DNA from: Deuterostichococcus epilithicus
Taxonomy: Eukaryota > Chlorophyta > Trebouxiophyceae > Prasiolales > Stichococcaceae
DNA: 64,000 nucleotides
NCBI GenBank assembly: GCA_033439295.1
Contig: JAVTLE010000023.1
Span: forward strand, 3,260,530 to 3,324,529
Reading direction: 5' to 3'
Part shown: piece after piece, positions 3,001-44,879 of the stretch
Position numbering within the stretch: position 1 is the first letter of the stretch
How the letters are laid out: each line of letters starts with the position of its first letter
Notes under the pieces: generated by a model
What the model saw: the letters and a program-made list of their open reading frames with translations, nothing else
Told to the model about the DNA's origin: nothing
Databases searched by the model: none
Translations under genes and position numbers: made by a program

Positions 3001-5395
3001 GCTGAGCAATGGCCTGAGGTGCGCTTTGGATTGTGTCAACGGTTATCGACTGGTTTTGCACATCCGGGAATCTGCTCTGGTTTGCAAATGTAGGACGGCG
3101 CTCTCATCCCAGACAAAAGGGAAGCAGACAGGCGCATGCCTGGCTGCGGAACGGCAGCCGCTTGTGCGTCCGGGTCGACGGCGGGGCCAGTGCGGTCAGC
3201 AGGCACCGGGTCCGCCCACACCGCCACATCGCCTGCCTCGTCCTGCAAGTGCATAGCCGAGATGCCTTACAATGGAGGTTGATGGCCTGCAGGCCAAATC
3301 TGCGGCTGCGCATGGCCGGCGCAAAAAGCCCTGTCATTGGGCAAGCATTGCTGCGGCCGCAGCATTTGGTATTTTGAAAGTAGAACAGAGTTCCTGCAAG
3401 GCTTCCTGCCCCACCTGGAGCGCAAGGGTGTTGGCAGTCGGGTGCCAGCAGGCCGCCGCAACAGGCATGGTGCACTTGCGGGTCGAGATGCACGCTTTGC
3501 CCTCATCCGCCCACACAGCCACCAGCCCGTCAGTGCCCGCGGTCACGATGTACAGGCCTGCATGTGCCAAGGGTCGCAGTCATGCCAAGTATACCCAGTG
3601 CTTCAAGGCAGCTCGATCGTGCACAGAGTTGCCGCTGACCGAGGAAATTCATGGAGCCTGGCTAGCCCCGACAGTTTCAAGCGCTCATGCAACCTCGAAC
3701 GAGCTAGCAGCAGCATGCCGCTGTGACTCCACCACCGCAGGCACGTCCTTGCAAGAGGCGAGCAGTGCGTGCACTTGCTTTGTCCAGCAGCGGCCACGCT
3801 GCGGTGTAGGGCGCGGCACAGCCGCCAGAAGCCTCGCACCATTAGGGGAGAAGGCGGCAAGGTTGACAGGCCCTTTGTGCTGGCCGACCAGGCTGAAGCG
3901 CGGCTCCCAGTTCAGTCGCTCCAGGGCCTCCACCTCGCCGTCACTGCCTGGCACCGCCAGCAGGCTGCCGTCCGGGTGCCAGCCGATCACCGGGTGCCGC
4001 CCACCCTTGGGGTCGGACTGCAGCAGACGCATTGCAGTGCGAACCGGTCAGCTGCACATTCCCTGGTCGGCTTTCGGACAAGCCTGGCAGCATAGGATCA
4101 TAGTGGCTGGCGCACAAGGCGAGCCAAAAGTCGGATCTCTCCATCTTGAGAGGCACCTGCAGATTGTGGCAGGTCGAGACGGCACCTTGGGGGCCCTGCG
4201 GCGGGCGGCAGAGGCGCGCCGGCTGTCCAGGTCCCACACCTGCACCGCGCCGCTCGCCAGCACCGCCGCGAGGAACTTGCCGTCGTCCGGGTCGTATGCC
4301 AGGCTGACCACCGCCTCGTCTGCCAGTAGCTTTTTGACGACCTGCCGTAGACTCAAGTAGCGTTCGTATGTTGTGAACATGGAGAGCGACAGGGTCACAC
4401 GCCGGGCTGAACACTGCCTCGTTCGACCTGTGGGGAAGCAGGAACTTGTCATGCAGCATGGTAAGCCAGATAACCCCCTCGACCGCCAGCAGCTTCTTGA
4501 CGACCTGCTGGAAACACACGGGAGGTGTCATGTGCTACAGCCGTGGAGAACCACAGGGTCCTGCCACAGCTTTTTCTCTGCATGTTGAGAAACCAGGGAA
4601 TCGTGCTGCAGCGGTGGAGCATGGCAGGTTGCTGCACAGCGCCTCTCGCCACGAGGTCTGCGAACTGCCTGCTCCAGAGCGGTTGCCCAGCAGGCGCTCC
4701 AATGGCGGTCCGCTTCACCACAGCATGTGCCCAGCACATGCATAGACCCCGCTGTCAACAGGGCATTGAAGTGGTTTGTGAATTGCGCACCCGCTGGTCG
4801 GCGACCTGGATGATCTTGATGGTGCCATCCGCGCAGGCTGCCGCCACAGTCTCACCATCCTTGTGGTATGCCACGGCCCCCGCTGGCAGGTCGAACCGCG
4901 TCAGGTTGTTCTCGAACTCGCTGTCTGGCACCTTATGCACCTGTCGGGCGTCGCAAGCAGGCACTCGCAAGCTGGACTCTCCTAAGAACAGCCTTGACGG
5001 CAAACTGAAATCAAACAAGTAGTTCACTGCAGAGCATGCAGGCATGAGTGCCGCCCGGTGTACATGATGTTGGCAGGTCTCGTTGGAAGCGGGCTGCCCT
5101 GCTGATGCTGCTCTGGCTGTGGGGCTCAAGGTCGTACCTTGACAAACTGGTCTATGCCACCCGTGGCGACCTGGCCGCTCACAGGGCAGGCCGCAATGCT
5201 CAGCAGCGGTGGGCTGCTGTGGGGCCCGCTCGCCGCGTGCGACTTCAGCACGTCGGCTGTGGTGGCGTCTCGGACGGCTACCTTGCCGTCAGCGCCGCAT
5301 GTCACCAGGCAGACCCCGTCAGCATGCTTGGCAAATACCACACCCCCCGCGCCCCGGCCATGCCCCGCCGTAAACTGGAGCTCCGACTCTGCCAT
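1..5395 (-). CDS. CTF4: CTF4/WDHD1 (AND-1) replisome adaptor, 3' end beyond window
   Basis: Couples the CMG helicase to DNA polymerase alpha and other replisome clients in the nucleus (family knowledge). The ATG is at 5395. Exon 1 (5395-5138) and exon 2 (4940-4791) encode WD40 blades such as TCGADGKVAVRDA and ACADGTIKIIQVAD. Exon 3 starts at 4341 (VVKKLLADEAVVSLAYDPDD), then GWHPDGSLLAVPG near 4000, AGTDGLVAVWADEGK near 3530 and DEAGDVAVWADPVP near 3230. An acidic linker (GMDSFIVREEE, near 2900) leads to the SepB/Mcl1-type middle domain: QTPIQPGATPRG near 2680, RHFLAYTSDGCITSRGENED near 2440, MWTLELPAGEDVTAL near 2020, FSDQGTLCSMDSDG near 1180 and RPVMSSMPLEMPII near 350. The order matches WDHD1. 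The last clear exon ends at a GTGAGC donor near 257; the C-terminal region lies off the left edge. The start is shared with a divergent phosphatase gene. Confidence 0.9.
1070..1101. repeat. 16-bp tandem repeat, two copies
   Basis: TGCGACTGTGAAACCC is followed directly by TGCAACTGTGAAACCC. It lies in a CTF4 intron, just downstream (in gene sense) of the exon around 1145-1270. Confidence 0.85.
4380..4504 (-). repeat. Two ghost copies of CTF4 exon 3 start in the preceding intron
   Basis: The real exon 3 begins at 4341 after CAG. A copy begins at 4504, also directly after CAG: it reads VVKKLLAVEGVIWL against the real VVKKLLADEAVVSL, and about 25 residues on DKFLLP against GKFLAA. A second overlapping copy near 4425-4380 reads SNEAVFSPACDP against the real ADEAVVSLAYDP. 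Neither continues as a WD40 blade. They lie 163 bp and about 103 bp upstream, in the transcription sense, of the matching real positions. Confidence 0.8.
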
Positions 5396-6130
5396 AGTCT
5401 GCTGCAGGTTTGAAGCCGATCTGTACTATTCGTAAGCAGTTGCTTCAGGCTTCAGTTGCTGTCGCTGCGACTGCGCCACACTGTCTCAATGCTGATACAC
5501 CCTCGATGCTCGAGCGGCACAATTCCGTCAGTCGGGGAGCCGACGTGCGGCAAGCTTGCTAGTCTCAGCCACTTAGATGATCCTTGGCGCACGAGCTTGC
5601 CCAATCGAGGCGCTGCAGACGCCGTTGGCAGTGTTGAAGCCTTTCCGCAGAGTGATGTGCACAAAGATTCCACTGCAACAACCTTGGCCCAGGCTCGTGG
5701 ACTGCGCAGCAATCGAATGCACGAAAGTACTTGACTCTGTTCGGGCAAGTCTAGGCCGGACCTCGCGACAGCTCTTTGACGCGCATGTCCAGCATGCGCA
5801 CTTCGAATTTGAAGCTGTAGTCTCGCTATAAATCTCTCGTGAACACTCACGTACTTACTTGTATACCCTTTCAGGCCTGTACTTCACATTTCTTAGTCTT
5901 GGACATGCCCTGCTCCTCCCTTCAGAAGCTGAGTGTGCGACTTGCAGATTCGTGGAGGAGATGGTGCCAGATTGATTGCAAGACATCCTCTGACCGTTGT
6001 TTAATCGCACAAGCGGTTCGGCTCCCCCAGCAAGCGACGTGCGTTTGTGCTACTACTACTAGACACGAACCGACAAATCGATCTGCAACAGTGATATGCG
6101 GTGACAAATGGCGTATTGAAGTTTGGCATC
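5396..6130. promoter_or_regulatory. 735-bp divergent intergenic region between CTF4 and the phosphatase
   Basis: No supported coding exon. It must hold both promoters and 5' leaders because the flanking ATGs face outward (5395 minus, 6131 plus). It is more AT-rich than the genes around it. I saw no convincing TATA box or repeated operator. Confidence 0.6.
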
Positions 6131-8653: not shown

Positions 8654-19726
<11,073 letters not shown>

Positions 19727-20257
19727 ACGCTGTGGCGCATGGCGGTCTTGATCGTGTATCGCGCAAAGCGAGGTTCAGTGTCGCTGCACAACAGAAATAT
19801 AGTCCAGGCAGGTCACGACTCTTATATGGTTTAAAGTATCAAAGGGTGGTGTCGGCGCAATCTATGGTTTTGCTTTGCAGCTGTGTGTACTGATCAAGTC
19901 TGCGTTTAGAGTGTCATCACACATGTGGTCAAAGGTTGCAAGAATGAATGAAATCATAAAACACGTTTGGTACAGCAGCAGCTCGGACACAACAGCCGCA
20001 CTCAAGAGCACTCGCTCCCTTCGACAGCATGCGGCGATCTCCAGGTGCAATGCGACAGGCTGCCGGGAACCAAAACCCTGAAATGTGTTTCACCAGTCGA
20101 AATTGCGACCCCTCCACCAGCATGGTGGCGCAGTAGGGCAGCGTGCGCAGCCGTCTCAGAGTCAAAGTTGGCTCAATCAGGTTCTCTCAAGGTTGTCGGT
20201 GCAGCTCTCCTTTCAGGCAGCTGCTCCGATCGAGGGGGTTGTTCAGGTTTCCGCCCC
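19727..20257. other. 531-bp convergent intergenic region
   Basis: Separates the remodeller stop (plus) from the membrane-protein stop (minus). AT-richer than the flanks; holds two 3' UTRs. No supported coding exon seen. Confidence 0.55.
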
Positions 20258-22025
20258 TCAGTCGGAGCGGCTGAGCAGGCCGCGCAGAGCCTCCCGCTTG
20301 GTCTCCAGCTCCTCGAGGTCCTTCTGCGCCTGGAGCCGCTTGCGCTCCCGGTTGCTGCGGCCTGGAGGCCGGGGTCTTATCGGGTCAGCGAATGTCACTT
20401 TGCGCCTTGGGAAGTACGACACAGTGCGCAGCAAGTACCTACCGGAGAGCGAACTGAGTTTGACACAGGCGCGTGCCCGATCACAGGACCCGCCCCGGCG
20501 AGCAGGGCACCTCCGAAGCTAAAGTCGTTCCTCAAACCTAGAGAAAGCAACCAAGAGCAGCGCTTCCGAGGCCAGGGGGCACGCACTGCGCTTGATCAGG
20601 CCGAAGCAGAGGATGCCGCCCAGGAAGTAGATGGAGCCGCAGCCGAGCAGCGCCATTGCCGACACAAAGCGGTACAGCTCCAGCGACTGGTGGAAGTCGC
20701 AGTCCTGTGGGGCCGCAGTTGAACATCACCGAAATCAATGCAGTGCGTCTGGCACTTGACTCCAAGGCCGACGAGGGCTCCAGGAGTGGCGCGCGCTGCT
20801 CACAAGCAGTCTACCAGGCAGTTGCTCTCAGACGGGTGGCAATACGGCTGTCCTTAAGTAGAGCGAGCATAGCCTGTCGGCGATGGCGCACCGTACACCG
20901 AACGCCGCACCAGCACACAGGACGCAGCGCATTGAGGGCCGCCTGAGGATGGCAGAGACCGGAAACGGAGGTGAAGGGGTCGAGGGCGCACCTTTCCGGA
21001 CGGGTCCTTGCAGTCCTTGCCAGCGGGCGACGCCATTTTGAAGGTGAGCAGCGCAATGAACACCTGCGCATGCAAATCGGTGCCGAGGCCCTCAGCGCAG
21101 ACGCCTTACTGCCCACACAACCCTGTGATTTCGTTTCCAAGCAAAAGCCTGTGGCCCAAAACTGCTGCAGCCGCCGTAGCAAGTGGAACGCTGCTGCTGT
21201 CCGGGCCAAAGGCGCATGTGCAGCTAGAAACCTGTATCCACATAGATGGCTGTGCCTGGCGCCAGGAGCGAGCCGCGGCTCTACATTTGAGGCGCTGGCC
21301 GCTCCCGCCCAGTCGGCCCTTCACCAATTGGACAATCGGCAGCTGCCATTTACACTCCGATTCGGCAGCTGCTACGGGCCGCACCTGCACCACGGCGCGT
21401 CCAACCCAGTACTCGGTGAAGCGCACGAGCTGCAGCAGCCGCTCCCACTCAATCTCGATGACAGCGACCAGCACTGCGCCCAGCAGCCCGAACACCCGCA
21501 GCGCTTGGTCCAGCAGCCCCTCCGCGTTCTGCGCCAGATGACGAACTTGCATTGGACATGGTCGGAGAGGCATCGACACGTAAACGTGCTGATTGCAGCC
21601 CAAACACCTGTTGCGCCTGGTGGAGCAGCGCCTCCTGCGCGAACGAAGACGGAGAGTGCTACAGCAAGGGGGGTGAAGGTGCTGATCGCAGCCCAAACAC
21701 CTGCAGCGCTAGGTCCGGCTGGCCCTCCGCGTGCTGCGCAGTGCAACTCCCAACCACCAAGCAACCAACGCCTTCATATATACAACTGACCCTTGCGGCT
21801 GTGAAAGGGCAAGCACTCTGGAGCAAAGCTGCGAACCTGCCCTGTGCCGCTTGAGACCAGTTGCAAGCGGTGGTCGAGATGTACACGTTTGGTGCACTCA
21901 CCGTGATGGGCTGGTAGACAGCAAGGGCCATGCCATAGCTGACGGCGCACAGTATAGCACAGAGGCCGGTTGCCACATTCAGGAACCTGCGGCGTGCGCG
22001 CACGGGCAGTAAGAAGTTGAGGTTT
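20258..22025 (-). CDS. Four-pass membrane protein, possibly COPI-associated/TVP15-like; first exon not found
   Basis: Exons that join in phase: 22025-21902 (RFLNVATGLCAILCAVSYGM, first membrane segment), 21528-21385 (VFGLLGAVLVAVIEIEWERL, second), about 21060-20990 (VFIALLTFKMASPAGKD, third), about 20710-20590 (FVSAMALLGCGSIYFLGGIL, fourth), and a last exon to 20258 (charged tail with ELETKREALRGLLSRSD). WVGRAVVQ-VFIALL across a splice and the short cytosolic helical tail resemble the COPI_assoc/TVP15 family of Golgi vesicle proteins, which is an inference. The first resolved exon opens in phase 2 with no in-frame ATG, so the start lies upstream, between 22026 and DBP10. Confidence 0.62.
21590..21733 (-). 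repeat. Two ghost acceptor-side copies of the second membrane-segment exon
   Basis: The real exon starts at 21528 after GCGCAG (NAEGLLDQALRVFGLLG). One copy starts at 21634, again after GCGCAG, reading EALLHQAQQVFGLQS. Another starts at 21733 after GCGCAG, reading HAEGQPDLALQVFGLRS. Spacings are 106 and 99 bp. The two ghosts also share ATCAGCAC-TTCAC just downstream, absent from the real exon, so they are closer to each other. Confidence 0.85.
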
Positions 22026-22837: not shown

Positions 22838-25800
22838 ATGGTGGCAGCCTCGGATGACTTCCCGACGGCCGACCCGCACGTCGGTCAGGACGAGTTTCCT
22901 GCCGCCCCGCCAGCGGAGGGCGCCGTAGACTTTGGATGGGGCGACGAGCGCAAGCTTGGCGGCCGCCGCAAGAAGGCGGAGGCCAAGAAGAAGGCCAAGC
23001 CCGGCAGCTTTGGTGAGCAATCGTAAGGAACTTACACGAGGCTTCTTGAGGCGAGATAGAGCCGGGCACACGCCAGACGCCTCAGGGGTCGCCGCGGCAT
23101 GCACAGAAGCGGCGGCCACGGCCTGGCACGGCGGAGCGTGCTCACTGCAAACCTGCAGCGTTTCCCGAGGCGCCGAACTAAGTCAGAGCCCGCCAATGCA
23201 CGATGACCTTGCTACGACAAGGGACGCAACCTCACGGCCACTCAGTTTTAGCCAGTCAAGTGTCTGTTGATGTCGGCGCTCCCGCAAACTGCACACCCCA
23301 TGCCCGCGCAGAGTCGATGGGCTTCACGGTGGACATCCTGCGCGGCATCAAGCGCAAGGGCTACCAGCTGCCGACGCCCATCCAGCGCCGCGCGATGCCG
23401 GCCATCCTGGCGGGCGCCGACGTGGTCGGCATGGCGCGCACCGGTAGCGGCAAGACCGCCGCCTTCGTGTTGCCAATGCTGCAGAGGCGAGGCTGCTGCC
23501 ACAACGTGCCTTTCGCTGTGATACCCTCTCCCGATTGCAGAGTAGCGTCCTTGGACACCTTCGGGGGCAGCCGGCTCGACGAAGCTTGGCTCCAATGCCA
23601 TCGTTCCAGCAGACTGATGCTTCATGAAAGCTGCATGTCGACGACTGAGAGTGCTGCGCCACGTCTACTCGTCAATTAGTAGCGAGGGCGCGATGGCACG
23701 ACCGCGACACATCCCCGTGCCTCTGTAGGCTGGCGCAGCACTCGCAGCGTGCGGGTGCGCGGGCTGTTATCCTGGCGCCCACCAGGGAGCTGGCGCTGCA
23801 GACGGCGCGCGTGGTACGGGACCTGGGCAAGCACCTCAACCTGAGGGTCGCGACCTTGGTCGGCGGAGACTCCATGGAGGCGCAGTTTGCGGAGCTGGCC
23901 GGCAACCCAGACGTGATCGTCGCGACCCCAGGCCGGCTTGCGCACCACCTGACGGAGGTCGCGGGGTTTGGGCTGAAGACCGTGGAGTACGTCGTTTTTG
24001 ACGAGGCCGACAGGTGGACCCTACGTCCTCAACCCTGACACTCGTGCATGCACCGTCCTCGCACATCCCTCTCTGACTTACTTGGCCACCACAGTATCAC
24101 GGAAGCCGCAGAGGGGTGGCTGGGGCATGGAGGGGCTCCTTAGTATTTGATTCTGAGACAGGCTTCATGGAGCAGCTGTGCATTTAGAGTGTAGCGCGCG
24201 CACGACAGCCGACCTGCCTCGATCCTCCACTCGCCACCAAACCACCGCTGACCGTTGTCGCCGCCCCACAACGCAGGCTGTTCGAGATGGGCTTTGCAGA
24301 GCAGCTGCGCGCAATTCTGGGCGGCATGCCGGAGGCGCGGCAGACACTGCTGTTCAGCGCCACCATGCCGCGCGCTCTGGCGGAGTTTGCACGCGCCGGG
24401 CTGCGCGACCCGACGCTCATCCGCCTGGACGCAGAGTCCAAGATCTCGCCGGACCTTGGCCTCGCCTTCTTCACCGTCAGGTGGGGGGCGCCTGGGCATG
24501 CAAGGCGGTGCTGTGCCACGTGGGAGCTCTTCTTGGGGGGACTTGCGCCTGTCTCGCGAGCACCTGTGCAGTTCGGGCTTGAGCTCGTTGTGGAGACCGG
24601 GCTGGAGTGGCAGTCGCAATGGCCACGCTCTACCGGAGGACAGCGTCTGCAGCGTAAGGGACTGCGCGCCCGGCCGGGCTCGCGGTGTGCACCACGCGCG
24701 TCGTCGTTGCTGCAGGGAGGAGGACAAGCTGGCGGCGCTGCTGGTGCTGGTGCGGGAGGTCATCCCGGAGGGCCGGCCCACGCTGGTCTTCGCGTCGACG
24801 CGCCACCACGTGGACCTGCTGTCCCAGCTGCTGGAGGCGGAGGGCATCCCCGCCACCTACGTGTACGGCACCCTGGATCAGGTGGGGGCCCAGGCATCGA
24901 AGAGGGTGTAGGCTTTCTGCAGAGCAGGACGATGGCTGTGGTCCCACAGGAGGCGGAGGTCGTCCCCACCACCTGCGACTATGGCACCCAGGTGAGGTCC
25001 AGTTATTGAAGAGGGTCTAGCTCGTTTACAAATCAGGACATCCGATGGCGGGTCCCGCAGGATGCGGAAGGCATCCCCGCCACCTGCGACTTCGGCACCC
25101 TGAACCGGGTGGGAGATCCACGGAGTCTGTGGTGCACCACTCCGTCACCGCAGTGACTGGTCGCCGGGCGCTGTTGATGTGTAGGATCCAGAGTCGCTGG
25201 AACACAAGTGCAGCGTCCTGAGTCGTGCATTGCGGCGTCCAGACGTCATCCATCTTCTTTGGGCGTCATGTACACAGCTGACACTCGATTGCAACGTCGA
25301 GATTGCGACTGCCCCTGAATGCACCTGCAGTGAGCGAGGGCTGGTGCTTGTCCCTAGAGACCGGGCTCATCCCCAGGTGGTACGTCCAATGAACGCTCCA
25401 CAGGTGCCACTCCGCCAGTGGCAACACACAGCGTCCGGTGGTGCAGGGTCTCTGGGTTGCCCCTGCCAAGCCGGTCGTCAATGGCAGCCCGAGATTTGTT
25501 GCATTTGCTGCCGGAGTTTTGAGGCGTCGCACCCTGATGCACCCTTTGCCCAGCGACCGTCAGTCCCAGCAACCTAGGGCTGACCTTCGTGCCCTCAAAT
25601 CAGTGGCTGCTGCTTCGTGCCTTCACATCAGCGGCTGCTGCTGCCGCGCGCAGGCGGCGCGCAAGATCAACATCGCCAAGTTCAGGGCGGGGCGCGCGCA
25701 GTTCATGGTTGTCACGGATGTTGCGGCGCGTGGCATCGACATCCCACTGCTGGACAACGTCATCAACTTCGACTTCCCGCCGCAGCCCAAGCTGTTTGTG

Positions 25801-28800
25801 CACCGCGTGGGGCGTGCCGCTCGGTGGGGCTCCTCTCATATTGCAGAGTGTAGATGCTCCCCTCAGCGATGCCACCTTGCTGAGGAACCCACATCTGAAA
25901 GTTGATGCTGCACTTCAGATCCCAACCAAGCATGCTATGCCTTGCCCCTGCAAGCGTGCCATGAGGGTCATCTCAACTTCCAATTCCCTAACCCACATGC
26001 AACTGCCATGGCCCAACCGCTACTGCAACCCAACGTCGCGCCTTGCCTCATAGCCTTGCCTGCAGTGCTGGACAGGCCGGCAGCCATTCGCTGTTCACCC
26101 GGGACGAGCTGCCACGCCTTGCTGACGCTCCAAAATGTCATAATGCCGCGTCACAGCACCACTGCTCTTTCGTTTTGCAGCGCCGGGCGCACGGGAACAG
26201 CGTACTCGCTGTTCACGCGGGAGGAGCTGCCGTACGCCCTGGACCTGCACCTGTTCCTGGGCCGGCGCCTGGAGCCGGCGCCGCAGCGCTCCATCTCAGA
26301 CGCCGCCGCGGCCGAGCGCGGTGACGTGCCCGAGGACACCAGCCTCTTCGGCACCTTTCCCTTGGTGCGCTTCCGCTGCCGCATCCGCTTCCGCTTCCGC
26401 TGCGTACCTCTTCCTGGTGGCAGCATGCGGTCGCTGTGCATGTTGTGGCGTGCCGTTCCGTTCGTGGCGGCGGAGCGGGGCTACGATTACTCGTTTGGCC
26501 AGGCAGCTGGCGAGGCTGAACTCTGGGCACGGCAGCGGCGCCTGCCCGGCCTCGGTCGTGCCGTCAGCACGATGCCTGCCGGCCCTCCCATGCACACGGC
26601 ACCACCGCTCGAGGCGCCTGATACGCACTGCAGGTGTCGCTGGAGACGGGAGCGGAGCACATACGCGACGTCATCGCGTCGTCCAACGAGCTGCAGTCGG
26701 CGGCGGCGTCCGCCGCCAAGGCCTTCGTGCTGTACCGCAAAACGCGGCCGGGCCCCTCGCTGGAGAGCATCAAGCGGTCGCGCGGCCTGGCGCCAGAGGG
26801 CCTGCACCCGCTGCTGGCGCAGGCGCTACCCGCCTCCGAGTTGGGTGAGCGACCTTAAATAAATGTCCTTGGTGTGATATTCCGCGTGCTTGGCTGGCAG
26901 CCAATGCGTGCATCTTTTGGGTTGCCGACCCTTTCGTGTCCAGCTTGCATTTACCGCGTGCTTTCTTTCGGCTGCAGACCCCTGTGACCACCTCATCGGA
27001 TGGTGGCCCACACCCTGCCGGCAGCACAGCACACCTGTGTGTCTTGCTGCAGCCCGCCACCCTCATTCACACCGAGACCATGCCGCGGCTCTCCTCTTGC
27101 AGGCGGACTGGAGGCGCAGCAGGGCATGGCGGCTATCTCCTCGGCGCTGCGCAGCTACCGCCCGGCGCAGACAGTGTTGCAAGCGCGCGTCGCCGGGCCG
27201 CGCTCGTCGGCGGTGCGCCTGTCAGGGCGCCAGCGGCAGGCGGCGCCCGCCGGCGGCCCCAACCTGCTGACCAGCCAGCAGCCCGAGGAGGTGCCCGTCT
27301 GCCCGGCGACTCCTGTGCAATCGCACTTGCACACTGCTGTACGAGTACTCGGTCTTGGTGTGCCAGTGTTTGGCCATCCTTTCACGATGTGCCTCATCAT
27401 TCCGCCCGATTCATCTGCTCAGCATCTGGCGCTTGTGCGATTGGGCATCTGCTTCCAACCACCAGACCTGCGGAGTGCTTGGGCACAGGAGGCGGTGCTG
27501 GCGTCAGACGCCGGCCTGCCAGAGGCCAACAGCGCAGTGCCGCTGGATGGCAATGCAGCAAATGGCGCCGGCAGCACCGACGATGAGGAGGCAGCACCCG
27601 CGTGGAAGCGCGGGCGGGGGCGGGCGGCGGCGCCGGCGTTCGTGCTGCCAGAGGAGGCGGAGCCCACCGGCAAGTTCAAACAGAACGGCTTCTACATACC
27701 GCACGCCAGGTTTGGGATGGACGGTCGCTTTTACCTACATGCGCAAAGCTGAGACAAAGCTGGCGCCCAATGAGGCAGCAACCTGGCGCACTGCAGGGCG
27801 GACTGCGGACTGCGCCCTCGTTGCCTCATGTCCTCTACATTCTGCAGTTGAAACCTTGCTGTGGAGATCCAGCAGCCAGGTGGCAGACGAGCTGCGGCGG
27901 AGCGGGTGTCCAAGCGCCCGCAGCCATCCCACTTTCTGCCTTATCTGGGCCTTTTGAAATGCACCTTCCCGGCTAGCCCGGAGCGCTTGACGCTACAACG
28001 TCCAAGCCGAGACATCCTCAAACTTTGCAGAACCGGCGGGCAGGACGAGGCGGGCTACTCGGTGCACGGGCCCGGCGGCGGCGGCGGCGGCGGCCTGGAA
28101 GCGGCGGTCATGGACATGGTGGGCGAGGACGCGGGCACCATTGCCGCCTCGCGCGGCACCTACCACTGGGACAAGCGCCACAAGAAGTATGTGCAGCTGC
28201 AGCCGGGGGAGGAGGTCCGCGCCGGCAAGCGCATGCGCGCGGAGAGCGGCGCCTCGGTGCGCCGCCGCCCTGCCCCATGTCTTCGTGCCTTCCTCCTGAA
28301 GGCGCAGTCAGGGTTTTGTCCGTCTTGCTTGCTTTCTTAAATTCTGCGGAGAGCAGTTGAATGCTGCGGGCGCCTCATGCAGCAATTTCGTCCCCTGCAG
28401 CAGACTGCTCGGTGGATGCCAGTCGAACGCCTTGCCACCTGCCTCGACTGCGTCATAGTTTGGCAGCTCGCCGTTTCCCTGTTGCTGTCGCGTCAGCGCA
28501 ACACGTTCCCAGGCGACAGCACATGTCACGATGGACTCTCGCCAGGAAGCTGGTCGGTACCGGCAGGCTCTGCTGCTCTTCTGCTCAAGCTTGTCTTATG
28601 CCTCCTGCGTGATTGCACATGTAGACCAAGATCAAGGGCGGCAAGAAGGGTAACGAGGCCAGCGGCGCGATGTACGAGAAGTGGTCCAAGCAGCAGCGGC
28701 GGCGCATCCCCGTCACGGGCTCCGTGGAGACAAAGCACAGCGGCTTCGACGCCAGCCTCGCCGACAGGTGCCGCTCGCTCCACAAAAGTCGGTGTCGTGG

Positions 28801-29951: not shown

Positions 29952-32949
29952 ATGAGCTTGCCAACCGGACTGGCAGCGCTGGATCCCCACAGCCCCGGCA
30001 GAAAGAACCCAAAGGCCTTGAGACCTTCGAAACACGCTCAGCGGCGGCGTGACGAGGCCCTCGAGCGGCAGCAGGCAGCCAGGGAAGATGCAACAGCCAG
30101 AGCACGCAAGCTGGCGCTGGACGCCACACGTGGCGAGACGCCGACCTCGCAAGCTGCCCAGGTGCCTGAGGGTGGCGTACAACCCATGGAGGACCAGAGC
30201 GGCACCATGCTTGCGGCCGTCAGCCACTGACAGGACCCGCCGGAGCATTTGCGAGTCAGCCGTGCGTGGCTCCGTGTTCAGTGTTTCCTGAAACGACAGC
30301 AGCAGCACCGCATCGCCGAGACTCACTGACATTTGGGTCGGCGCTTCAGGACGCCGAGATGGCGGATGGCGCTGCCGCAGCGGAACGGCGGCAGGCAGGC
30401 CACCATGCAGGCAGCAGTGGGGAGTTGCATGCGGAGTCCGTGCGCGAGCATTGGGCGCGGCAGCTGATGCGCCCGGAGTGGCTCATCGATGTGCCGCCCA
30501 ACCTGGCTGCCGACTGGTGCGCCTGCTGTGTGCGCTGCAGTCCGCGTGTCTCATGCTCTGCAAGAGTGCCTCATCAAGGTCCAGGAGCGTGATTGCCTCG
30601 CGGACCTCGCAGCTGCAAACCGGGTGTGGATCTGTGCTGCTGCTTGTCATGCTGCGGTGGATGTCGGCTTTCTGAAAGCTGCGCCACGATGGGCATCTCG
30701 TCGCCGTCGGCGGCTCTGAGGCAATTGCTGCGCACCAACGGCAGGTATGTCATGCCGCGGCCGGAGGGCCAGCGCTGCCTGCTCATCTCCAGCGGTGGCC
30801 AGACGGTTGCGCGCATGCGCAATGGGGTGCAGATGGCACGCTTCCCGTCAGCGCTGCCGGGCGGCTCGCGCCACACCCAGGTGACAAGACAAGAGACCCC
30901 CTGCTGAGCATCAGCGCGACCCCTGTGACAAAAAACGTCCCTCCTGCTCAAATTGTGCACTGCTGGTGTCTTGCAGACTTCGCTGTCATCAATATGTGTG
31001 GAATGCTTGTGACGTTTCTTTCCAGTATTGACCAGAACTCTGCTTGTCATGCAATCAGATGTCGGCAGACTCGTACTGCATCCTGGACGCCATATACCAC
31101 CCGCCAAACCAAACTTACTACGTCATGGACATGATGTGCTGGAAGGTGCGCAGCTGCTGCAAGTGCTCTATAGGGTTCAGATTTTATTCGTGGAGCAAAG
31201 GCTCATTGGCCACACACCTCGCGGTCAAGAGCAACCAAGCTGTCTCTGCACACTGTCGATGACGGCTGGTATGAGCCACAGCTACCAGCGAAAGTGCTGG
31301 AGAAGCTGAGGCCCCAGGCTCCTGGCGTGCAGGACTGTGCCTCCCCTGCGTGCAGGGCTATGCTCTGTACGACTGCATGGCCGAGTTCCGGCTGTTCTGG
31401 GTGGCCAGCAAGCTGGCGGAGACAGACGCGTCGCAGCCCGGCAGCAACTACAACCGCTACAGTATCGTCAGCGTGCCCGCCTTCAATGCCACTCCCGGTG
31501 TGCTGTCCACAAACTCACCCTCCAGCGTCACACACAACCACGGCTTAAGGGACACGGCCCAGATTGTGATCCTGGCATGGTAGCAGTGACGTCCTGTCGT
31601 CGAGTGCAGACATGCGGGCCATCGAAAGGCGTGCCCACCTCGCATGTCCCTCGCCTGCATTTGCTGCCACCCGCTTAAGCTGCCACGTGACGGAAGCTCA
31701 CGAGGGGAGGGCCTGCACGCACTGAGCAGGCGGCCTGACGGCGGCACACTCGGCTTCGGTGCCGTTCGTGCGCGACGGGCTGTACCTGTTGCACAAGGAG
31801 GGGCACTACACCCTGGGGCAGAGCCCGCTGGCGCTGACATGGAAGGATGCCGCCAGCTCCCGCTTCCTGCTGGACACCGACCTCAACGGCAACACGCTGT
31901 CGCAGCAGGTGTGGCAGCCCCAGCTGTACGGTTATTGTGACTGCAATCGAGAGAGCTTTTCGAGGTGGAAGGACGCCGTTTGCTCCCGCTCCCTGCCCCA
32001 CACTGACCCCAATGGCAACGCACTGTCGCAGCAGGTACGGCCGAGGAAGCTGTTGAACCAGGTTGAGTCTGGGAAGTAGTTGAACCTGGGTCCAATTGGT
32101 TGACTAGCTGCTGTTACATAATCTTTGGGTGGAGTACCGAGAGGGCGGCGCCCTGGTCGCCTGCCCTTCGATGGAAAGGGGGACGAGGAGCAGGTGGCGC
32201 TGCCGGTGGCGCTGTAGAGGGCATCAAAGCAACTGCAGCCAGAATGTACCTCAGTGTTTGTTCGCACAGCAAGTGGTGCTGGAGTACCGGGGGGACGGCG
32301 CGCTGGTCACGGGGGACGAGGAGCCGGTGGCGCTGGCGCGGGAGCCGCCGGAGGCGACCGCCGCCGCCGGCAAGGCGCTGGCGCCCGGCAAGCTGCTGCG
32401 CTTCGCCATCGGCCCCGGCGGCATGCAGGCACGGCGCGCTCAGAGCCGTCCCCCAGGCTGAAGCAGGCCGTCCGCGGCCTCCCCCTCCAAGAGGGCGCGC
32501 CTACCATGCGCCCACCTCCTGGGGTGGAGGCACAAGTTTGAAGGCTGCTGCAGTTTGGCTTTGCTACGTGGAACGCTGTATGATTTTTCCTCCCTGCCAG
32601 ACACTTGGCGGATACACATCTCCAGAGCGCAGCGGCACACAATGCCCGCCAGGGCACCCTGAAGCGGTTCACCAGCTGGAAAGGGGACCATGTGCCAAGG
32701 ACTGAGCGAGCTGAACACTGCTGCGCTTTGTGTGGCCGACCAGCCTGCCCGCCCTGTGTGCAGATGGTGGACGGCCACCCTGTGGCGGCGGACCTACATT
32801 TCGAGGGCGGGGCGCACGCGCGGCGCGGCCGCGCCGACACCGTCAGTAAGATCCTGTTCCAGTACCTGGCGCGCCTGCAGCCTGTGACGCTACAGATGCT
32901 GCTGGAGTCCAGCCAGGCGGGCGAGCTGCGAAGCGGCATGCAGTCGTGA
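29952..32949 (+). CDS. SNUPN: Snurportin-1, m3G-cap snRNP import adaptor, 421 aa
   Basis: Carries trimethylguanosine-capped snRNPs to importin beta (family role). Eight exons join in frame: 29952-30161, 30350-30516, 30745-30880, 31059-31145, 31356-31497, 31730-31908, 32270-32428, 32764-32949. The N-terminus has an importin-beta-binding-like basic helix (RRRDEALERQQAARED). The cap-binding core is clear: ADWYVMPRPEGQRC, where the Trp codon is split TG/G and matches the cap-stacking Trp of the human protein; FPSALPGGSRH; YHPPNQTYYVMDMMCWK; LYDCMAEFRLFWVASKL; FVRDGLYLLHKEGHYTLGQS; PLALTWKD with the second expected Trp. The human protein is about 360 residues; the extra length lies mostly in the N-terminal linker and C-terminus. 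Intron 7 needs a GC donor (CAG/GCACGG). The intron between exons 6 and 7 carries two different ghost junctions. Confidence 0.94.
31967..32040 (+). repeat. Ghost donor-side copy of snurportin exon 6 end
   Basis: Exon 6 ends WKDAASSRFLLDTDLNGN then TLSQQ before donor GTGTGG at 31909. 126 bp on, the DNA reads WKDAVCSRSLPHTDPNGN then ALSQQ before GTACGG at 32035. The frame is open and the donor intact, so this copy is young or constrained. Confidence 0.9.
32127..32215 (+). repeat. Ghost copy of snurportin exon 7 start
   Basis: Real exon 7 (from 32270) reads LEYRGDGALVTGDEEPVALA. 150 bp upstream the DNA reads VEYREGGALVAC, then, shifted in frame, GDEEQVALPVAL ending in TAG. The copy keeps GGAGTACCG and GGGGACGAGGAGC-GGTGGCGCTG blocks separated by a small insertion. 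Confidence 0.88.
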
Positions 32950-34175: not shown

Positions 34176-37100
34176 ATGAGCGCAGCCGTCATGAGGCAGC
34201 CCCCGCAGATGCCACCGCACCTCAACGGGGAGGCGCCCAGTCTGCCGGAGAAGCTGCACAGCGTCGACCTGGGGCGCTATGAGCAGGTGGGGCGCCGCAT
34301 CGAGGCCTGCGCGCTGCCAAAGATGTGTGCACGGGTACACCCCTGCATGCAGGCTCAGCGACCCTCCGGCGGCTCATGAGGTCCGTAAGTGCTGCAGCAC
34401 GCAAAGGGCTCATGTATCGACGCAGACTGGCGTGCTTGGGGAAGGCACATTTGGTGTCGTGGTGCGGGCGCGCGACCCACAGGCCAGTGGCGGAGAGATC
34501 GCCATCAAGCTTCTACCCCGAGGCGACTTCGTGAGCTGTTCCCCGCGGCTGCTGCATGCAGCCTGTGGTGGTTCAAGGTCCACTCGTGTTGGCACGACCT
34601 GGCTGCTCGCCTGCACCTGTGCATTCTCATTGCTGCCGGTCTCGAGTGCTTGCTGCGTCTGCTGCGCAGGTCAAAAACTTCAAAACATATGTCAAGAGGG
34701 AGATCGTGCACCAGAGCAGCCTGAAGCACCCCTTCATCGTGTCCCTGAAGGAGGTGCGAACCCTTTGCGGCCTGCTCGGCTCGGCTGACCGGCGCCCCCC
34801 TGCTCTGTGCACATCTGCCGACTGGGTGTTGCCGCAGCTGATGAGGCCAGCCTTCGCTCGCGTCCTCCGGCACTGGCGCCGGAGCCCGCTGCTGCAGAGG
34901 TCGTCCGACCGTCTGTGCGCCTGTGGCAGCATGCGCTGTATGGCTGCCAGGCCGAAGCTCCTCCTCCAGGCAGGCCGTCACCCTGCGCGCAGGTGTTCCT
35001 CACGCAGACGCACCTGGCGATTGCGATGGAGTATGCGCAGGGAGGTGACATGTTCAAGTACATCTGCCGCCACAAGCCCCACTGTCGCCTACTGGAGTCC
35101 CAGGCCCGGTGGATCTTTCAGCAGCTCATCATCGGGTTGGACTACTGTCACAACAAGGTGCGGGACAAGAACAGCGTTCAGTGTCAGAGCCTGCCGCAGC
35201 CACATTGACCAGCCCTGGCTGCGGAGTGCGCAGTCGCGCTGGCTAGGGGGTTGAGTGGGCAAGCAAGTGGGGCAGCATTGACGGCGCACTGGATCGGCAC
35301 CTGCACACATCAGATTTTCGCAAGCTGCCCGCGATCAGCTACGAGAGCAGGTCGTGGCCGCCTTACGGGTCGTGCTTGACATCAGCAATGACTGGGACTA
35401 ACCTTAGCAGTCAGCATGACCAGCATGTTGCCTATCATATGTTTGTGCCATCTGCTGTCACACAAGCGTGCCAAGCGGGCCACTGGCAACCTGTCACTGC
35501 CTCTGACAACCCGATCTCGAGAGCAAAGCGCCTGCGACGAAGTGGCTTTGGATGGACATAGTGATCCAAGCAGCGTCAAGAACAACTGTCGCCCGATTGT
35601 GGCAAGGTGTACGCAGCAGCCGGAACCTGTGACACTGCTTTGTTGACGCAGGGTGTCGCGAACCGGGACCTGAAGTTGGAGAACCTGCTGTTGGACCGGG
35701 ACGGCAGCGACGGCACCCGCCCGCTGCTCAAAATCTGCGACTTCGGCTACTCGAAGGTGCAGCACCTTGTGCATGAGGAATTCGGGAGATTGATCCCATC
35801 GTGGACAGTGGACAGGCGAAAGGAGGCGCGAGGCGTGTCCAGCACAGCCGAGCAACCCGTCCAGTCTGCTGTCAGCCCACCCAGCGCTGCTGACACGGTG
35901 GCGCCTGTCCATCCGTGCAGCACGAACAAAACTCATCGGCGAAGACGGGAGTCGGCACGCCCATCTACATGGCGCCCGAAATTATATATGGTGGCAACCG
36001 CTACGATGCAAAGGTGATTGGCAAAGCTGCCGGTATGATGCCGACTCTGATGCATCTGAAGACCACCCTCATCAGTGGTGCTGCGAGCTGTATGCCTGTC
36101 CCGGGCTCCTTGTGGGCTCTGGGCTCCTTGTGGGCTCCTTGTGCCCCGCCTGGCAAGCGCCTGGCTGCGAGCTGGCCGGGCGCTGGGTGCGGCGGTTGTG
36201 AGCGGGTGGACTCGGCCGGCGTCTGCCGCCATGCCACAGTACTTAAGGCAGCACTTGTCGTGGTGCCCCGCAGAAAGCGGACATCTGGTCGTGCGGCGTG
36301 ATCCTGTACGCGATGCTGTACGGCTGCTACCCCTTCAGCAACAAGGAGCCCGACTACATCCGCAAGATCGTCACGGCCACCTACCACATGCCGCCCGATG
36401 TGCAGGTGGGTCTAGGGTACAAGGTTTCTTACCCCCCCCGGCTGTTCGACTTGCGCCGTCTACCCCTGCACACCACATGCTCCATGCCTCCCCCAAGGCC
36501 TTGCGGGAGAGCATGCTGCAGCGTTCCGGCGAGTGCCCTGAGTCCCCCAGCCACCAGGGGCACAGCAGCAGCAGCAATGCGCTGGGCTCGACGAGCTGGA
36601 GCACGGCCTGAACCGGCGACCCGCGTTTTGACGCGGTGTGCACCACAGGCCCGCAGGCGTTGGCGGAGAGCAAGCTCTTGCTGACGCGGTTGCTAGTGCT
36701 GACACCAAAATGCAGCAACCAGACTGTCGCTTCTGGCCAAGCCTCAACCATGTCATGTGCACAGGTGCCGGCGGCGTGCAAGGATCTGCTGTCGCGGCTG
36801 CTGGTGGCAACCTCACAATGCAGCAACTGCACTGATGTTGCTGAGATTCATTATTTGAAGGGGAAGATGTAATACCGTTGTTGAAACGCACAGGTGTCGG
36901 CAGAGTGCAAGGACCTGCTGACGCGGCTGCTGGTGGCGGACTCGGAGCGGCGGCTGAGCATGCAGGAGATCAAGGGCCACACCTGGTTCCGCCATGCGCT
37001 GCCGTCCGGCGCCACCGAGATGAACGAGTGGTACATGAAGGAGGCCAGCGGCATCGACGAGGTGAGAGTCCCAGGGTTTTGGGGCAGGGTAGCGCAGCCA

Positions 37101-41600: not shown

Positions 41601-41736
41601 CCCGGACAAGTGGCGGCATGCGGCAGCACAAAAACAGGAGATTGCAGCGGCGAAGTTTCTGGCAGTGCAGAGAGCCTTCGAGATCCTGGGTGATGCGCAG
41701 AAACGTGCGGCATATGATGCTCGTCACTTCTGCTGA
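38640..41736 (+). CDS. TPR co-chaperone with C-terminal J domain (DNAJC7/TPR2-like)
   Basis: Hsp70 co-chaperone; TPRs bind chaperone tails and the J domain stimulates the Hsp70 ATPase (family role). First exons join in phase: 38640-38655 (16 nt, MKFDP), 38761-38962, 39166-39279, 39465-39663. TPR-type helices: YSAAFDCFTEAIRLCPRKAA, then HANRAAAALRLQRADIAAED, then RGGQAALKLKRPEEALQYFE. Later exons encode more helical repeats (ALILARRFAAAAAEMGG, EVAWRQGDLPSALRLLEDG, RLPAALADLATALEAQPGDV, GQPQQALLSLQAVLVAAPAT). The last exon carries the J domain: YATLQMDIGADAAATRRAYR, WHPDKW with the HPD motif, and VQRAFEILGDAQKRAAYDAR. The donor after HANR is GTTCTA, weaker than usual. An Ala-rich bias is strong. 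Exons between 39700 and 41500 are located but not all joined. Confidence 0.86.
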
Positions 41737-42093
41737 CGACACCAGCGCATCCTAGGCCAGCTGCCTACTTCAGGAACTGCAGTTGCACAAGATTGCGAGC
41801 CTCGTCATTGCAGACTGTTCAATGACATCTGTTTCCGTCAACGCTGAACGCCAGACAATAAAAGAACTGCTGAAGCACAAGCAGAACACATCCCGATTCC
41901 ATCAGGTTGCAGCCTCGATGCATTCACACAATTTGCATGCTGCATGAATGGAAAGCTTTCCTCAAACGCGTTATGTACGTTCGCAAAGCCCAACAAGAGT
42001 AAGTAAACAGGACACCAGTGATCCTTCTGTTCTAGACATGCAGAGCCGGTAGTGGCCGTTCGATGTTCTCAGCACACGAAACCCCTCCAGTGC
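41737..42093. other. 357-bp convergent intergenic region
   Basis: Between the TPR-J stop (plus) and the Gly/Asn-rich stop (minus). An AATAAA lies near 41857. No coding exon seen. Confidence 0.5.
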
Positions 42094-43464
42094 CTAGTAG
42101 GTGTCGCCAGAGCCGCCATAGCCGGTGCGCTGATTGTCGTTCGAGCCGCCACCATACCCCTCATTGTCGTTGGAGCCGCCGCCATAGCCAGTGCCCTCAT
42201 TGTCGTTGGACCTGCCGCCATAGCCAGTGCCCTCGTTGTCGTTGGAGCCGCCGCCAAAGCCAGTGCCCTGGTTGTCGTTGGACCCGCCGCCGAAGCCAGT
42301 GCCCTGGTTGTCGTTGGACCCGCCGCCAAAGCCAGACCCCTGGTTGTCGTTTGAGCCGCCACCAAACCCGCCATCAGCGTCGCCGCCAAGGGTGGTGCGG
42401 CCGCCCTACAGGCAAAGACAGTTTAGTTCAAATTCATGCTGATGCGGCGAAAGGCAGCCACAGGTGGCGACGGCAACATGCGAGGCACACACAGCTTGCT
42501 ATGCAGGTCGCACACCTCGTTGTCGTTCGAACCATAGGTGTCGCCCCCGCTGCGGCCATAACCAGTATCGGTGTTGCCGCCGAGGCCCGTGGTGCGGCCG
42601 CCCTGCACAGGCAGAGGCAGCCGTGTTCTGACGCATGCATGGTGGGATCCGTGTTGATGCACTGATAGGGAGAAGATGCATTGGCAGGTGGTGACGACAA
42701 GTTCAGGAGGTGCACATAGCTTGCTGAAGGTAGGACACCTCGTTGTCGTTTGATCCATAGGTGTCGCCTCCGGTGGCGCCATAACCGGTGTCAGTGTCGC
42801 CGCCCAGGCCCGTGGTGCCACCGCCCTGCGGGACAACCGTGTTCAGCACAATGTTCAGATCCATGATCATGCAGCGCAAGGTAGCGACAACGGCGGATGC
42901 ATTGGCAGGTGGCGACAACAACTTGGGAGCAGCCTGTAGTGAAAGCAGCACACCTCGTTGCGGCCGTAGCCAGTGTCCGTGTCTCCGCCGAGGCCCGTGT
43001 CACGCCCGCCGCCATACCCCGTATCGCTGTCGCCCTGCGTATTTCGAGAGCAGCTTTCAGCGTGGCAGGCTCCGTTCGGGTGTGCTGGTGATGAGGAGTG
43101 TGCCTTGAGCGTTCCACGGTTTCAGGGTCGTCTGTCCTGAATCAATCTGTCGTAAGTCAGCACTGCAAAGCTGCTGCAGCAGAGCGGTTTTACTACACAG
43201 GAGCGCTGCTGCAGCAATGCTAATTCGGGACAGACTGATCCAGGACTCACGATCCTTATGCCTTTTGCAGCGTCTCAAAAAGGCCTGCGTCATCTTCACA
43301 AGGTAACAAACCAGCCATGGATCAAATGCAGCTGAGGTGAAAAAATGGCACACCGGGTTGTTGCTGGAGCCGTACTCGCCGGAAGAGTCATCACTTCGGT
43401 TGCGGCCTCCGGGGAGCTTGTCGGAGATGCGGTCCGGAAGCTTGTCCTCCAGCTTGTTGAGGAA
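42094..43464 (-). CDS. Gly/Asn/Asp-repeat hydrophilic protein built from duplicated exons; first exon not found
   Basis: Resolved exons, all phase 0: 43464-43354 (FLNKLEDKLPDRISDKLP, charged amphipathic), 43034-42954 (DTDTGYG repeats), 42825-42739 and 42602-42516 (each exactly 87 nt, GLGGDTDTGYG and GGDTYGSNDNE), 42405-42094 (GGRTTLGG, then about seven copies of a 12-residue unit GGGSNDNEGTGY/F, ending SGDTY). No hydrophobic core, no Cys in the repeat; expected to be disordered. Fungal stress proteins such as DDR48 have comparable Ser-Asn-Asp-Tyr-Gly repeats, but that is only a likeness of composition. The function is unknown. The upstream first exon must end in phase 0; a short ATG frame near 43642 does not fit that phase. 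Confidence 0.75.
42100..42390 (-). repeat. 36-bp coding minisatellite
   Basis: About seven tandem copies of a 36-bp unit encoding GGGSNDN(E/Q)GTG(Y/F) inside the last exon of the Gly/Asn-rich gene; one copy near the 3' end is shortened. Unit differences are mostly synonymous or E/Q and Y/F swaps. Confidence 0.92.
42406..43034 (-). repeat. Tandem exon-plus-intron units of 197-223 bp
   Basis: Exon starts at 43034, 42825, 42602 and 42405 are 209, 223 and 197 bp apart and all open with GGC-G after CAG or TAG. The introns are also related: each carries a GTCGCCACCTG-type block (TTGTCGCCACCTGCCAATGC, GTCGTCACCACCTGCCAATG, CCGTCGCCACCTGTGGCTGC), and two share AGCAAGCT(A/G)TGTG after the donor. The unit duplicated was therefore exon plus intron. 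Confidence 0.9.
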
Positions 43465-44879
43465 CTGCACCAAGTGTCAGCAAAGTTTTGATGACGACGC
43501 TGATTCGTATGAGGTTTGGTGAACTCGCGAGACTGCGCGTCTGCGGACTTGCTCCAGATTGCCCGTCCACCCAGAGCGTTCCAGAAGCTGGACAGTGCCA
43601 AACACTAGGCCACTCCATTGTTGGGTTCGCTATGCTTGTCGACATGCACACCGGCCAGATTCTATCTTCGTGCAACAACCTCCCTCAAAGCGTGGACCAA
43701 GAAGTCCAAGAGATTGCGGTGTAGCTAACGAACTCCCCGAAGACCCGCTGATCGTATGCCCGTTCACGGTGTGCATGTCCGATCACGAAACGACCGTGGT
43801 CTCGAGTACAAACTGGACAGCGGCAGCCCCTGACCGCGGCCCGTGTCAACAGACCCAGCCGCTCGCAAATCGGATTGATCAGACGATCGGATAGAGTCAG
43901 GACAGCGCCGCGTCCTCGGCTAGTACCAGGCGGTGCTGACTCAGGATAGGTTTGGAAGTGCGCACGTTCGACATGTTGACGGCTGCCGGTTGCGATGCGC
44001 TGGCCTGGATGTGGAGATCTGTGGGACAAGACACAAAGTTTCAGCGCAGCTTTGCTGCGTTTCGTCTGATGCTGCCGCAAGCCACCACGCACTTGAAGTG
44101 ATCTGTGCTGCGACGGGAACACAATCGGGAGCGCGATATGCAGGAGGTTATCTCGCACCCTCAGCAGATTTTCGTCTGAGCGATGAGAAGCTGTTTAGAC
44201 CGTGGAGAGCAAATTGAGACGTGTTCACGAACTGGAGTACAGCTCCGTGTTGATGGGGCAGCTGCTATTCTGATAGTCCACAGGAGCATCTTGATCGGTT
44301 CCCTTGGACTCGGGATTGCCACTTGGCAGTGTCTCAGTCCACCCTACTATCTACGCGTTTTGCAATGGGGCTACAGGGAGGGCGAGTCTCACACTCACAG
44401 AGAGCCAGTCACGTTGGATCACGTCAGATGCTCACGATCTGAACTGCAAGGGCCTCGGTAGCCTCTCAGACTCGGTAGCTCCTGACCGGCGGCGGCAACT
44501 GCAGACTTGGATGGCCGCTTTCAAAGAAACCTAACAACCAACCCCAGATTTACAAAACCAAAAATAACGCATGTCAAGCAATCTGCACCGGGTTGAGCTC
44601 AGTCGCATGCGTCTTGAAGGCTGCTGTGACGCTATTGCTGCCGGAGGCGATGCGCACTGTACACATTTGGCAGCTGCGCTCTACTGAGACGCTCGTCCCC
44701 CAGGCAGCATGGAGGCAACGCGTTTCCATCGCGCAGGCACCTACCGCCTGCAGGAAACTGAGCATGCGCAAGCCAGGCGCGCGGCGGGCCACCGCACATA
44801 GCAGTGGCCCGGCGGTGGTGACTACCCCCGCTCCAGCTCGCTGCGGCCTACTGTCGACAAGCACGAGGGTCATCGCATG
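43465..44879. other. 1.4-kb region between two minus-strand genes
   Basis: Should hold the first exon and promoter of the Gly/Asn-rich gene and the 3' UTR of STK19. AT-richer than the genes. A 157-codon minus-strand frame at 43685-44158 has no recognised domain and is not called. The end near STK19 carries a ghost copy of its last exon. Confidence 0.5.
44785..44846 (-). repeat. Ghost copy of the STK19 last exon, beyond the stop codon
   Basis: The real C-terminus reads ATTAGPLLRAV and stops at 44880. About 102 bp further downstream the DNA reads VTTAGPLLCAVARR with GAGCTGGA-CGGG and CACCACCGCCGGGCC-CTGCT shared. It lies in the 3' flank, so it cannot be explained by intron function. Confidence 0.85.

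Follow-up and report, generated by a model that had tools for sequence, protein, structure and literature searches.

We found that introns in a 64-kb window of the genome of the green alga Deuterostichococcus epilithicus (contig JAVTLE010000023.1, positions 3,260,530 to 3,324,529) contain worn direct copies, one to three per affected intron and spaced by about 120 bases, of the edges of their own flanking exons, and that such copies are not limited to the window. Here "ghost" denotes a worn copy of an exon edge inside the neighbouring intron, and "working copy" the edge of the exon taken as functional. The geometry of the copies supported an origin by tandem duplication, and we consider it moderately probable that short duplications spanning a splice junction were absorbed into the intron, with the exon half of the ghost being re-copied from the working exon afterwards. 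The sample consisted of the window and 24 stretches of 10 kb (designated by L-numbers: L003, L014, L022 etc.), taken at fixed positions elsewhere in the 46.8-Mb genome (21 contigs), for a total of 304 kb or 0.65% of the genome. Gene models came from sequence alone, by means of a self-trained hidden Markov gene finder, and comprised 678 introns (median 223 nt) and 98.7 kb of coding sequence. The finder converged on the donor CAG·GTG[C/A]G and the acceptor YGCAG·G (the dot marking the junction), and sometimes called ghosts as exons.

Self-comparison of the window yielded 39 ungapped direct segments at offsets of 40-499, a count that includes the coding minisatellite at 42112-42369, versus 0 in each of two control ranges of equal width (5000-5459 and 20000-20459). 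Across 264 kb, gapped BLAST at a threshold of at least 41 bits returned 5 direct pairs at offsets of 60-90, 27 at 90-170, 10 at 170-250, 7 at 250-500, and 2 at 500-1000. Inverted pairs at the same threshold numbered 1 at 250-500 and 2 beyond 5000, leaving 44 direct versus 1 inverted at offsets of 90-500. Farther apart, 11 direct pairs were located at 1-5 kb and 4 beyond 5 kb. A first-pass annotation of the window had suggested that introns be matched to their own exons and to those of other genes. When this was done at a score of at least 34, 25 of the 678 introns matched their own flanking exon edge, against an expectation of 0.5 from the exons at other loci and a single match when the introns' own exons were reversed; raising the score to 38 gave 22 versus 0.0 and 0 respectively. 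Of its suggestion that the process is genome-wide, occurrence elsewhere in the genome was supported: beyond the window, 13 of the 24 stretches held at least one ghost locus (40 loci overall, by hand tally). These loci were mildly clustered in particular genes or regions (variance/mean 1.57, p=0.026), in L014, L022, L003, and at 21-37 kb of the window; one gene in L014 had ghosts at four junctions, and a poly(A)-polymerase-like gene in L003 had ghosts at four places. For an assembly or chance artefact we found no supporting point. Most copies differ by 10-30%, they lie on many contigs, and the far-offset, reversed, and other-locus controls were almost empty, so that the probability of this explanation is negligible. 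A mobile introner-like element was also considered and rejected: when 118 matched copies were compared with the other 24 sequences (304 kb), related sequence at unrelated loci was nearly absent, with 1 match at 37 bits and 0 at 41.

After removal of pairs within short-period arrays and of minisatellites, 59 pairs were kept (offset range 85-479). Subsets of these were used for codon positions (44 pairs), anchored extension (38), local alignment (31), the mean profile (41), and exon extent (29); each time, the pairs set aside were second copies, exon-exon or intron-only matches, or had no clear working copy. Median identity was 82, with at least 84% in 23/59 and at least 90% in 5/59. Offsets fell at 100-129 in 25 pairs and at 93-163 in 37, with none below 93, in keeping with the spacing of about 100-130 bp, and up to ~165, given in the first-pass annotation; many of the larger offsets belonged to second copies of an array, and a small second cluster of 6 pairs at 220-239 consisted mostly of third copies. 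The match covered 30-87 nt of exon counted from the junction (29 typed pairs). Averaged over 41 pairs, similarity extended across the splice site and dropped to background within 10-15 nt of intron. Both kinds of junction were copied, as had been described, with 15 donor-side and 26 acceptor-side pairs among 41 when typed by hand. At the anchored position, AG was kept in 11/26 acceptor ghosts and GT or GC in 9/15 donor ghosts. The combined 20/41 is below what we calculate for a dinucleotide at an identity of about 80%, a shortfall due in part to indels that displace the anchor. GC donors (C at intron position 2) made up ~7% of model donors in the 264 kb, and a GC donor was kept in two ghosts.

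The intronic part of the unit measured 32-140 nt, and was shorter than 34 nt in 1/29 versus 9.7 expected under uniform placement. All 42 exon-intron offsets were at least 93, as opposed to intron-only offsets, 4/5 of which were at 61-83; the contrast gave Fisher p=2.8e-5, on few and partly non-independent pairs and with a test chosen after seeing the data. This floor of 93 bp is likely set by splicing, in that a second junction less than ~90 nt away may compete with the first, and one farther off would be ignored. Exon-exon offsets below 90 (66, 66, and 75) belonged to coding repeats, two of them in minisatellites, and all were multiples of three. Tandem duplications confined to introns, with periods of 61-83 bp, were observed at L009 4019-4181, L016 3821-3942, L018 1771-1870, and L025 9270-9398; this size class was absent among the exon-edge copies. 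An offset exceeding all the others was seen at L004 5164-5332/5631-5789, where exon sequence is repeated about 460 bp off in DNA without a model exon, possibly as a gene fragment.

The tandem origin named in the first-pass annotation was supported by two lines of evidence. In five pairs the alignment covered the whole unit (the L022 array, L022 719, L008 4648, DBP10, and window 42461, where a whole exon is involved), and the L022 array consisted of four acceptor-type units with a period of 119-121 bp. For the 31 other typed pairs, the exon-internal far side served as the control, since a tandem unit must stop there. Local alignment (p<=0.05) detected similarity on the intron side in 7/31 and on the far side in 1/31, so that a unit-wide signature was present in 12/36 pairs overall (5 spanning plus 7 of the 31 others). 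Secondly, spacing within nine multi-copy arrays was nearly equal, the mean difference being 9.5 bp versus 20.8 when shuffled (P=0.0009), with single spacings drawn from a hand list that omitted offsets of at least 174; addition of a tenth array again gave P=0.0009. In the six arrays without intron-side alignment the difference was 12.7 versus 24.1 shuffled (P=0.02). Because spacing was equal even where the intron sides no longer aligned, the arrays look tandem, with their intron halves lost later.

We propose that short tandem duplications, with units mostly of 93-163 bp, would straddle a splice junction, so that the copied unit would hold the exon edge, its splice site, and roughly 30-100 nt of intron sequence; repair of breaks may be their source. 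The extra copy would be harmless because the original junction beside the exon body would still splice, and the copy would turn into intron, lengthening it by one unit, up to three or four units in some arrays. The ghost would then drift neutrally, and the working exon, held constant under selection, would occasionally be re-copied onto it through short gene conversion or template switching between the close repeats. We found the exon half of the unit to be far better preserved than its intron half, a feature that the first-pass annotation had missed, and re-copying from the working exon is most likely the reason why the exon half stays recognisable far longer.

The simplest alternative is random tandem duplication with neutral decay, in which ghosts would cluster at junctions only because selection purges duplications from exons and the exon copy loses similarity half as fast. 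The tandem geometry of several arrays agrees with it, as do the exon-exon offsets in multiples of three that purging predicts. We simulated junction-spanning duplications in which the exon was constrained, ghost and intron evolved neutrally, indels occurred at 0.2-0.4 per substitution, and ages were uniform, and applied the same detection; the substitution and indel models are simple ones, and the comparison lies within one genome, so that changes in ghosts are unpolarised. Under plain decay the unit-wide signature appeared in 81-88% of detected pairs, versus 12/36 observed. Intron-internal duplications numbered about 0.8 per junction pair in the simulation, versus 5 of any size beside the 42 exon-intron pairs; only 1 of these 5 had an offset of at least 93, and a sixth intron-only pair was a ghost matched to a ghost. 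Identity of at least 90% was reached by 21-33% of simulated pairs versus 5/59 observed. None of those five was a whole-unit pair, and no near-identical full unit was found in the 304 kb, so the first-pass description of the process as still active was not supported. A single old burst (age 0.25) came nearer to the counts, with a signature of 50% and 0.09 intron-internal pair per junction pair, but only 16% of its pairs reached 84% identity versus 23/59 observed. Both forms were therefore rejected, steady-state duplication for a signature and intron-internal counts far above those observed and the old burst for identities that were too low, and plain duplication in general appears doubtful. Its failure suggests that the working exon was re-copied onto ghosts, or that the edge was copied preferentially.

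When the ghost was made younger than the intron half of its unit, one of two settings gave a median identity of 84, with 52% of pairs reaching 84% and 14% reaching 90%, close to the identities seen in the sample. Several results nevertheless weigh against junction-spanning duplication followed by re-copying. The other setting overshot, with a median of 89, and with refreshed ghosts 10-13% of pairs bore the tandem signature, fewer than the 12/36 observed, so that a mixture is needed. Plain uniform-age decay by itself matched the median identity (82-83 simulated, 82 observed). Mismatches were not clustered inside ghosts as conversion tracts would have them (mosaic test, 47 pairs, combined p=0.56), and ghosts held 4 in-frame stops versus 11.1 expected with uniform substitutions, which may reflect substitution bias or some coding use. 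A cruder anchored extension gave a weak contrast between the intron side (5/38) and the far side (2/38); that method was blunt, and local alignment was used next. The cause of the 93-bp floor on unit length is conjectural, and working and ghost copies were told apart, and pairs sorted into donor and acceptor types, by hand on the basis of the self-trained gene models.

The preferential copying of edges would mean that repair or a template switch inserts an exon edge of 30-90 nt, splice site included, into the adjacent intron, which is itself not duplicated. The fall of intron-side similarity to background so close to the junction and the rarity of intron-internal duplications fit this explanation, and so does one site in L014 (2127-2157/2247-2277), a perfect 31-bp intronic copy of exon positions 38-69 located 120 bp away. 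Its flanks look unrelated on both sides although the exon continues on both sides, and it resembles a templated patch, not a decayed unit. Equal array spacing, full-unit arrays, and intron-side similarity in 7/31 are not accounted for by edge-only copying. Templated insertion can moreover be inverted, yet inverted pairs were nearly absent here. One inverted case is given in passages of Pace 2009 (PMC2671141). We regard edge-only copying as unlikely. A bolder version, to which we give a small but real chance, is a process anchored at splice junctions that would repeatedly re-copy exon edges and splice sites, without the intron behind them, at a distance of about 120 bp; exon and ghosts would then evolve in concert and introns would grow genome-wide, one exon edge at a time.

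We further investigated whether ghosts are under coding constraint. Ghosts differed from the working exon at rates of 0.174, 0.148, and 0.216 for first, second, and third codon positions respectively (2201 sites, 44 pairs), about the pattern of a neutral ghost beside a constrained exon and with little sign of coding constraint, in line with the decay already noted at first pass. The third-position excess was only about 0.07, indicating that ghost and exon were identical recently. When the ghosts were left in, the DBP10 query split exactly there, LDQ and ARK being contiguous in the two best solved chains listed, and SnRK2 with ghost 2 left in aligned to SRK2E only with gaps around the ghost. 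Judged by these alignments, ghosts in the two genes checked, DBP10 and SnRK2, lie outside the conserved protein. It could still be argued that ghosts are functional alternative or decoy exons under selection, given the scarcity of stops and the fact that the gene model calls some as in-frame exons (42 and 48 nt in DBP10, 39 nt in SnRK2), but the model demands frame. The near-neutral codon pattern and the interruption of conserved helicase and kinase sequence led us to reject this explanation. The working exon has also changed little at third positions, which points to similarity of recent date and not to long conservation; functional exons are very unlikely.

The first-pass annotation had also linked the copies to new introns. 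If each ghost marked an intron gained from a duplicated exon segment, as in the Rogers model, offsets would be of intron size, as they are here. The offset equalled the intron length in 0/24 matches, however, bar one near-fit that is a gene-model artefact, and the ghosts were placed within introns, at distances of 34-189 nt from the donor for upstream-exon matches and 45-189 nt from the acceptor for downstream-exon matches. On these 24 matches we rejected intron gain of this type as highly improbable.

All seven genes that had been named in the window carried exon-edge copies, each with a pair of at least 37 bits (Table 1). Pfam and PDB comparisons agreed with the earlier labels for 6/7, namely CTF4/WDHD1, the CHD remodeller (PHD, chromo, and SNF2 domains by Pfam), snurportin (Pfam SPN1_m3Gcap_bd), STK19, DBP10, and SnRK2, and the Pfam comparison gave no match for the "membrane protein" gene. 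The clearest case was DBP10, in which a unit made up of the last 50 nt of an exon and about 66 nt of the intron is followed by two further units, each ghost reading CAG, an open mini-exon, and GT. The CTF4 pair 4310/4473 was also similar on the intron side (p=0.002). The blocks of the snurportin acceptor ghost at 32130..32205 had offsets of 150 (35.6 bits) and 133 (32178/32311), with intron-side p=0.01. In the STK19-like pair the working copy was assigned differently in two analyses, and placement of 44800-44951 in STK19 is uncertain, the gene model having fused this gene with a neighbour that bears the minisatellite.

Table 1. Exon edges and their ghosts in the named genes of the window (window positions).
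Feature	Positions	Strand	Pairing
CTF4/WDHD1 exon start, taken as working	4310..4345	-	offset 163 to 4473-4508, 86% over 36
CTF4 ghost of exon start (acceptor type)	4473..4508	-	gene finder calls exon here too
CHD remodeller exon part, donor side	14744..14801	+	offset 128 to 14872-14926, 76%; intron side p=0.017
CHD ghost of exon end, intronic	14872..14926	+	BLAST pair with 14744
CHD exon end and donor	18212..18271	+	offset 112 to 18324-18383, 78%
CHD ghost of exon end and donor	18324..18383	+	BLAST pair with 18212
"Membrane protein" acceptor and exon start, taken as working	21483..21534	-	pairs at offsets 112, 205
"Membrane protein" ghost 2	21595..21635	-	ghost-ghost offset 93
"Membrane protein" ghost 1	21688..21739	-	BLAST pair
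DBP10 working copy, last 50 nt of exon ending ...YGTLDQ	24833..24882	+	pairs with two ghosts
DBP10 ghost 1	24949..24991	+	161-bp alignment at offset 116 covers whole unit, 73%
DBP10 ghost 2	25057..25108	+	offset 227 to exon, 82% over 57
DBP10 ghost of exon start	26088..26121	+	offset 118, 86% over 36
DBP10 exon start, working copy	26206..26241	+	BLAST pair with 26088
Snurportin exon end and donor	31840..31910	+	offset 126, 82% over 71, ungapped
Snurportin ghost of exon end and donor	31966..32036	+	BLAST pair with 31840
Snurportin ghost of next exon start	32130..32205	+	two blocks, 32130-32158 and 32178-32205
Snurportin exon start, working copy	32280..32338	+	self-comparison pairs
SnRK2 ghost 1, exon start and acceptor	36654..36719	+	offsets 108, 237
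SnRK2 ghost 2, exon start and acceptor	36759..36808	+	offset 129, 90% over 50; intron side p=0.007
SnRK2 acceptor and exon start, working copy (VSAECKDLLTRLL)	36888..36937	+	pairs with ghosts
STK19-like model, one of two copies	44800..44851	-	offset 102, 81% over 52; intron side p=0.035
STK19-like model, other copy	44902..44951	-	BLAST pair with 44800

The minisatellite at 42112-42369 (- strand) has a unit of about 36 bp in 7 copies and encodes a glycine-rich, GGSNDNEGTGY-like repeat. Adjoining it, 42461-42960 (- strand) comprises two direct copies at offset 224 (295 aligned columns, 72%). An entire 87-nt model exon and the intron parts on either side are included, which makes this a full exon-plus-intron tandem duplication, not an edge copy. 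The sampled DNA also includes light-harvesting genes, among them one in L007 for a CP26-like protein whose closest match among solved structures was chain 6kac_S, presumably from Chlamydomonas.

Introns with a ghost had a median of 384 nt and the others 219, which agrees with the lengthening of introns suggested at first pass, and ghosts occurred in 22/151 introns of at least 300 nt versus 3/527 shorter ones; this association is partly circular because longer introns offer more room. Exon-edge duplication is nevertheless a possible and concrete route of intron growth. The intron median here is similar to the 198-343 bp given for Chlamydomonas and relatives in passages of PMC8226300, which call the advantage of long introns unknown and leave open the mechanism driving length, likely an ancient one. 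For green algae, whose long introns have no agreed driver according to those passages, duplication of exon edges may offer one route. Passages of PMC8226300, on Chlamydomonas introns, and of PMC3446292, on the Coccomyxa genome, do not mention exon-edge copies, and among the matches listed in the open-licence literature no paper was titled on such copies in algal introns. That the density of fossil junctions is unusual, as first claimed, is plausible, with the density seen here in one alga alone. Since about 15% of the introns of at least 300 nt carry a recognisable copy of their own edge, intron growth by junction-spanning duplication is measurable and testable. Ghosts may also provide decoy splice sites and cryptic mini-exons, and the spare splice sites suggested at first pass are a possibility. 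Some ghosts will be annotated as exons by gene finders, which happened with our self-trained model.

Tandem exon duplication, including mutually exclusive exons, places whole exons beside the original, with their splice sites and under coding constraint. The copies described here are instead partial edges (30-87 nt, 29 pairs) and near-neutral, with 42461-42960 of the window as a whole-exon exception. The origin of introns by tandem genomic duplication, as reviewed in passages of a Biol Direct paper of 2012 (PMC3443670), has in common with our system the local direct duplication of exon with splice-site-like edges. In that model the intron is the duplicated exon segment, its length equal to the offset, whereas here an existing intron absorbs copies of the edge. 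Small tandem duplications also arise from fill-in at breaks with overhangs, which measured 43-50 bp in the experimental breaks described in parts of Schimmel 2021 (PMC8355091). These are short and direct as well and are a plausible mutational source, but those passages class them as short insertions of <100 bp, whereas the duplicated units in this alga mostly measure 93-163 bp, sit at splice junctions, and occur in arrays. Repair-mediated capture of proximal DNA (Pace 2009, PMC2671141), with a median of 147 bp and a donor within 5 kb according to passages of that paper, has in common with our system short proximal duplications able to carry exons and splice sites into introns. Those passages include an inverted case, the removal of copies within 50 bp as tandem, and partial exon/intron sequence in 4/824 donors, whereas the copies in this alga are direct, lie about 120 bp away, and nearly always consist of an exon edge.

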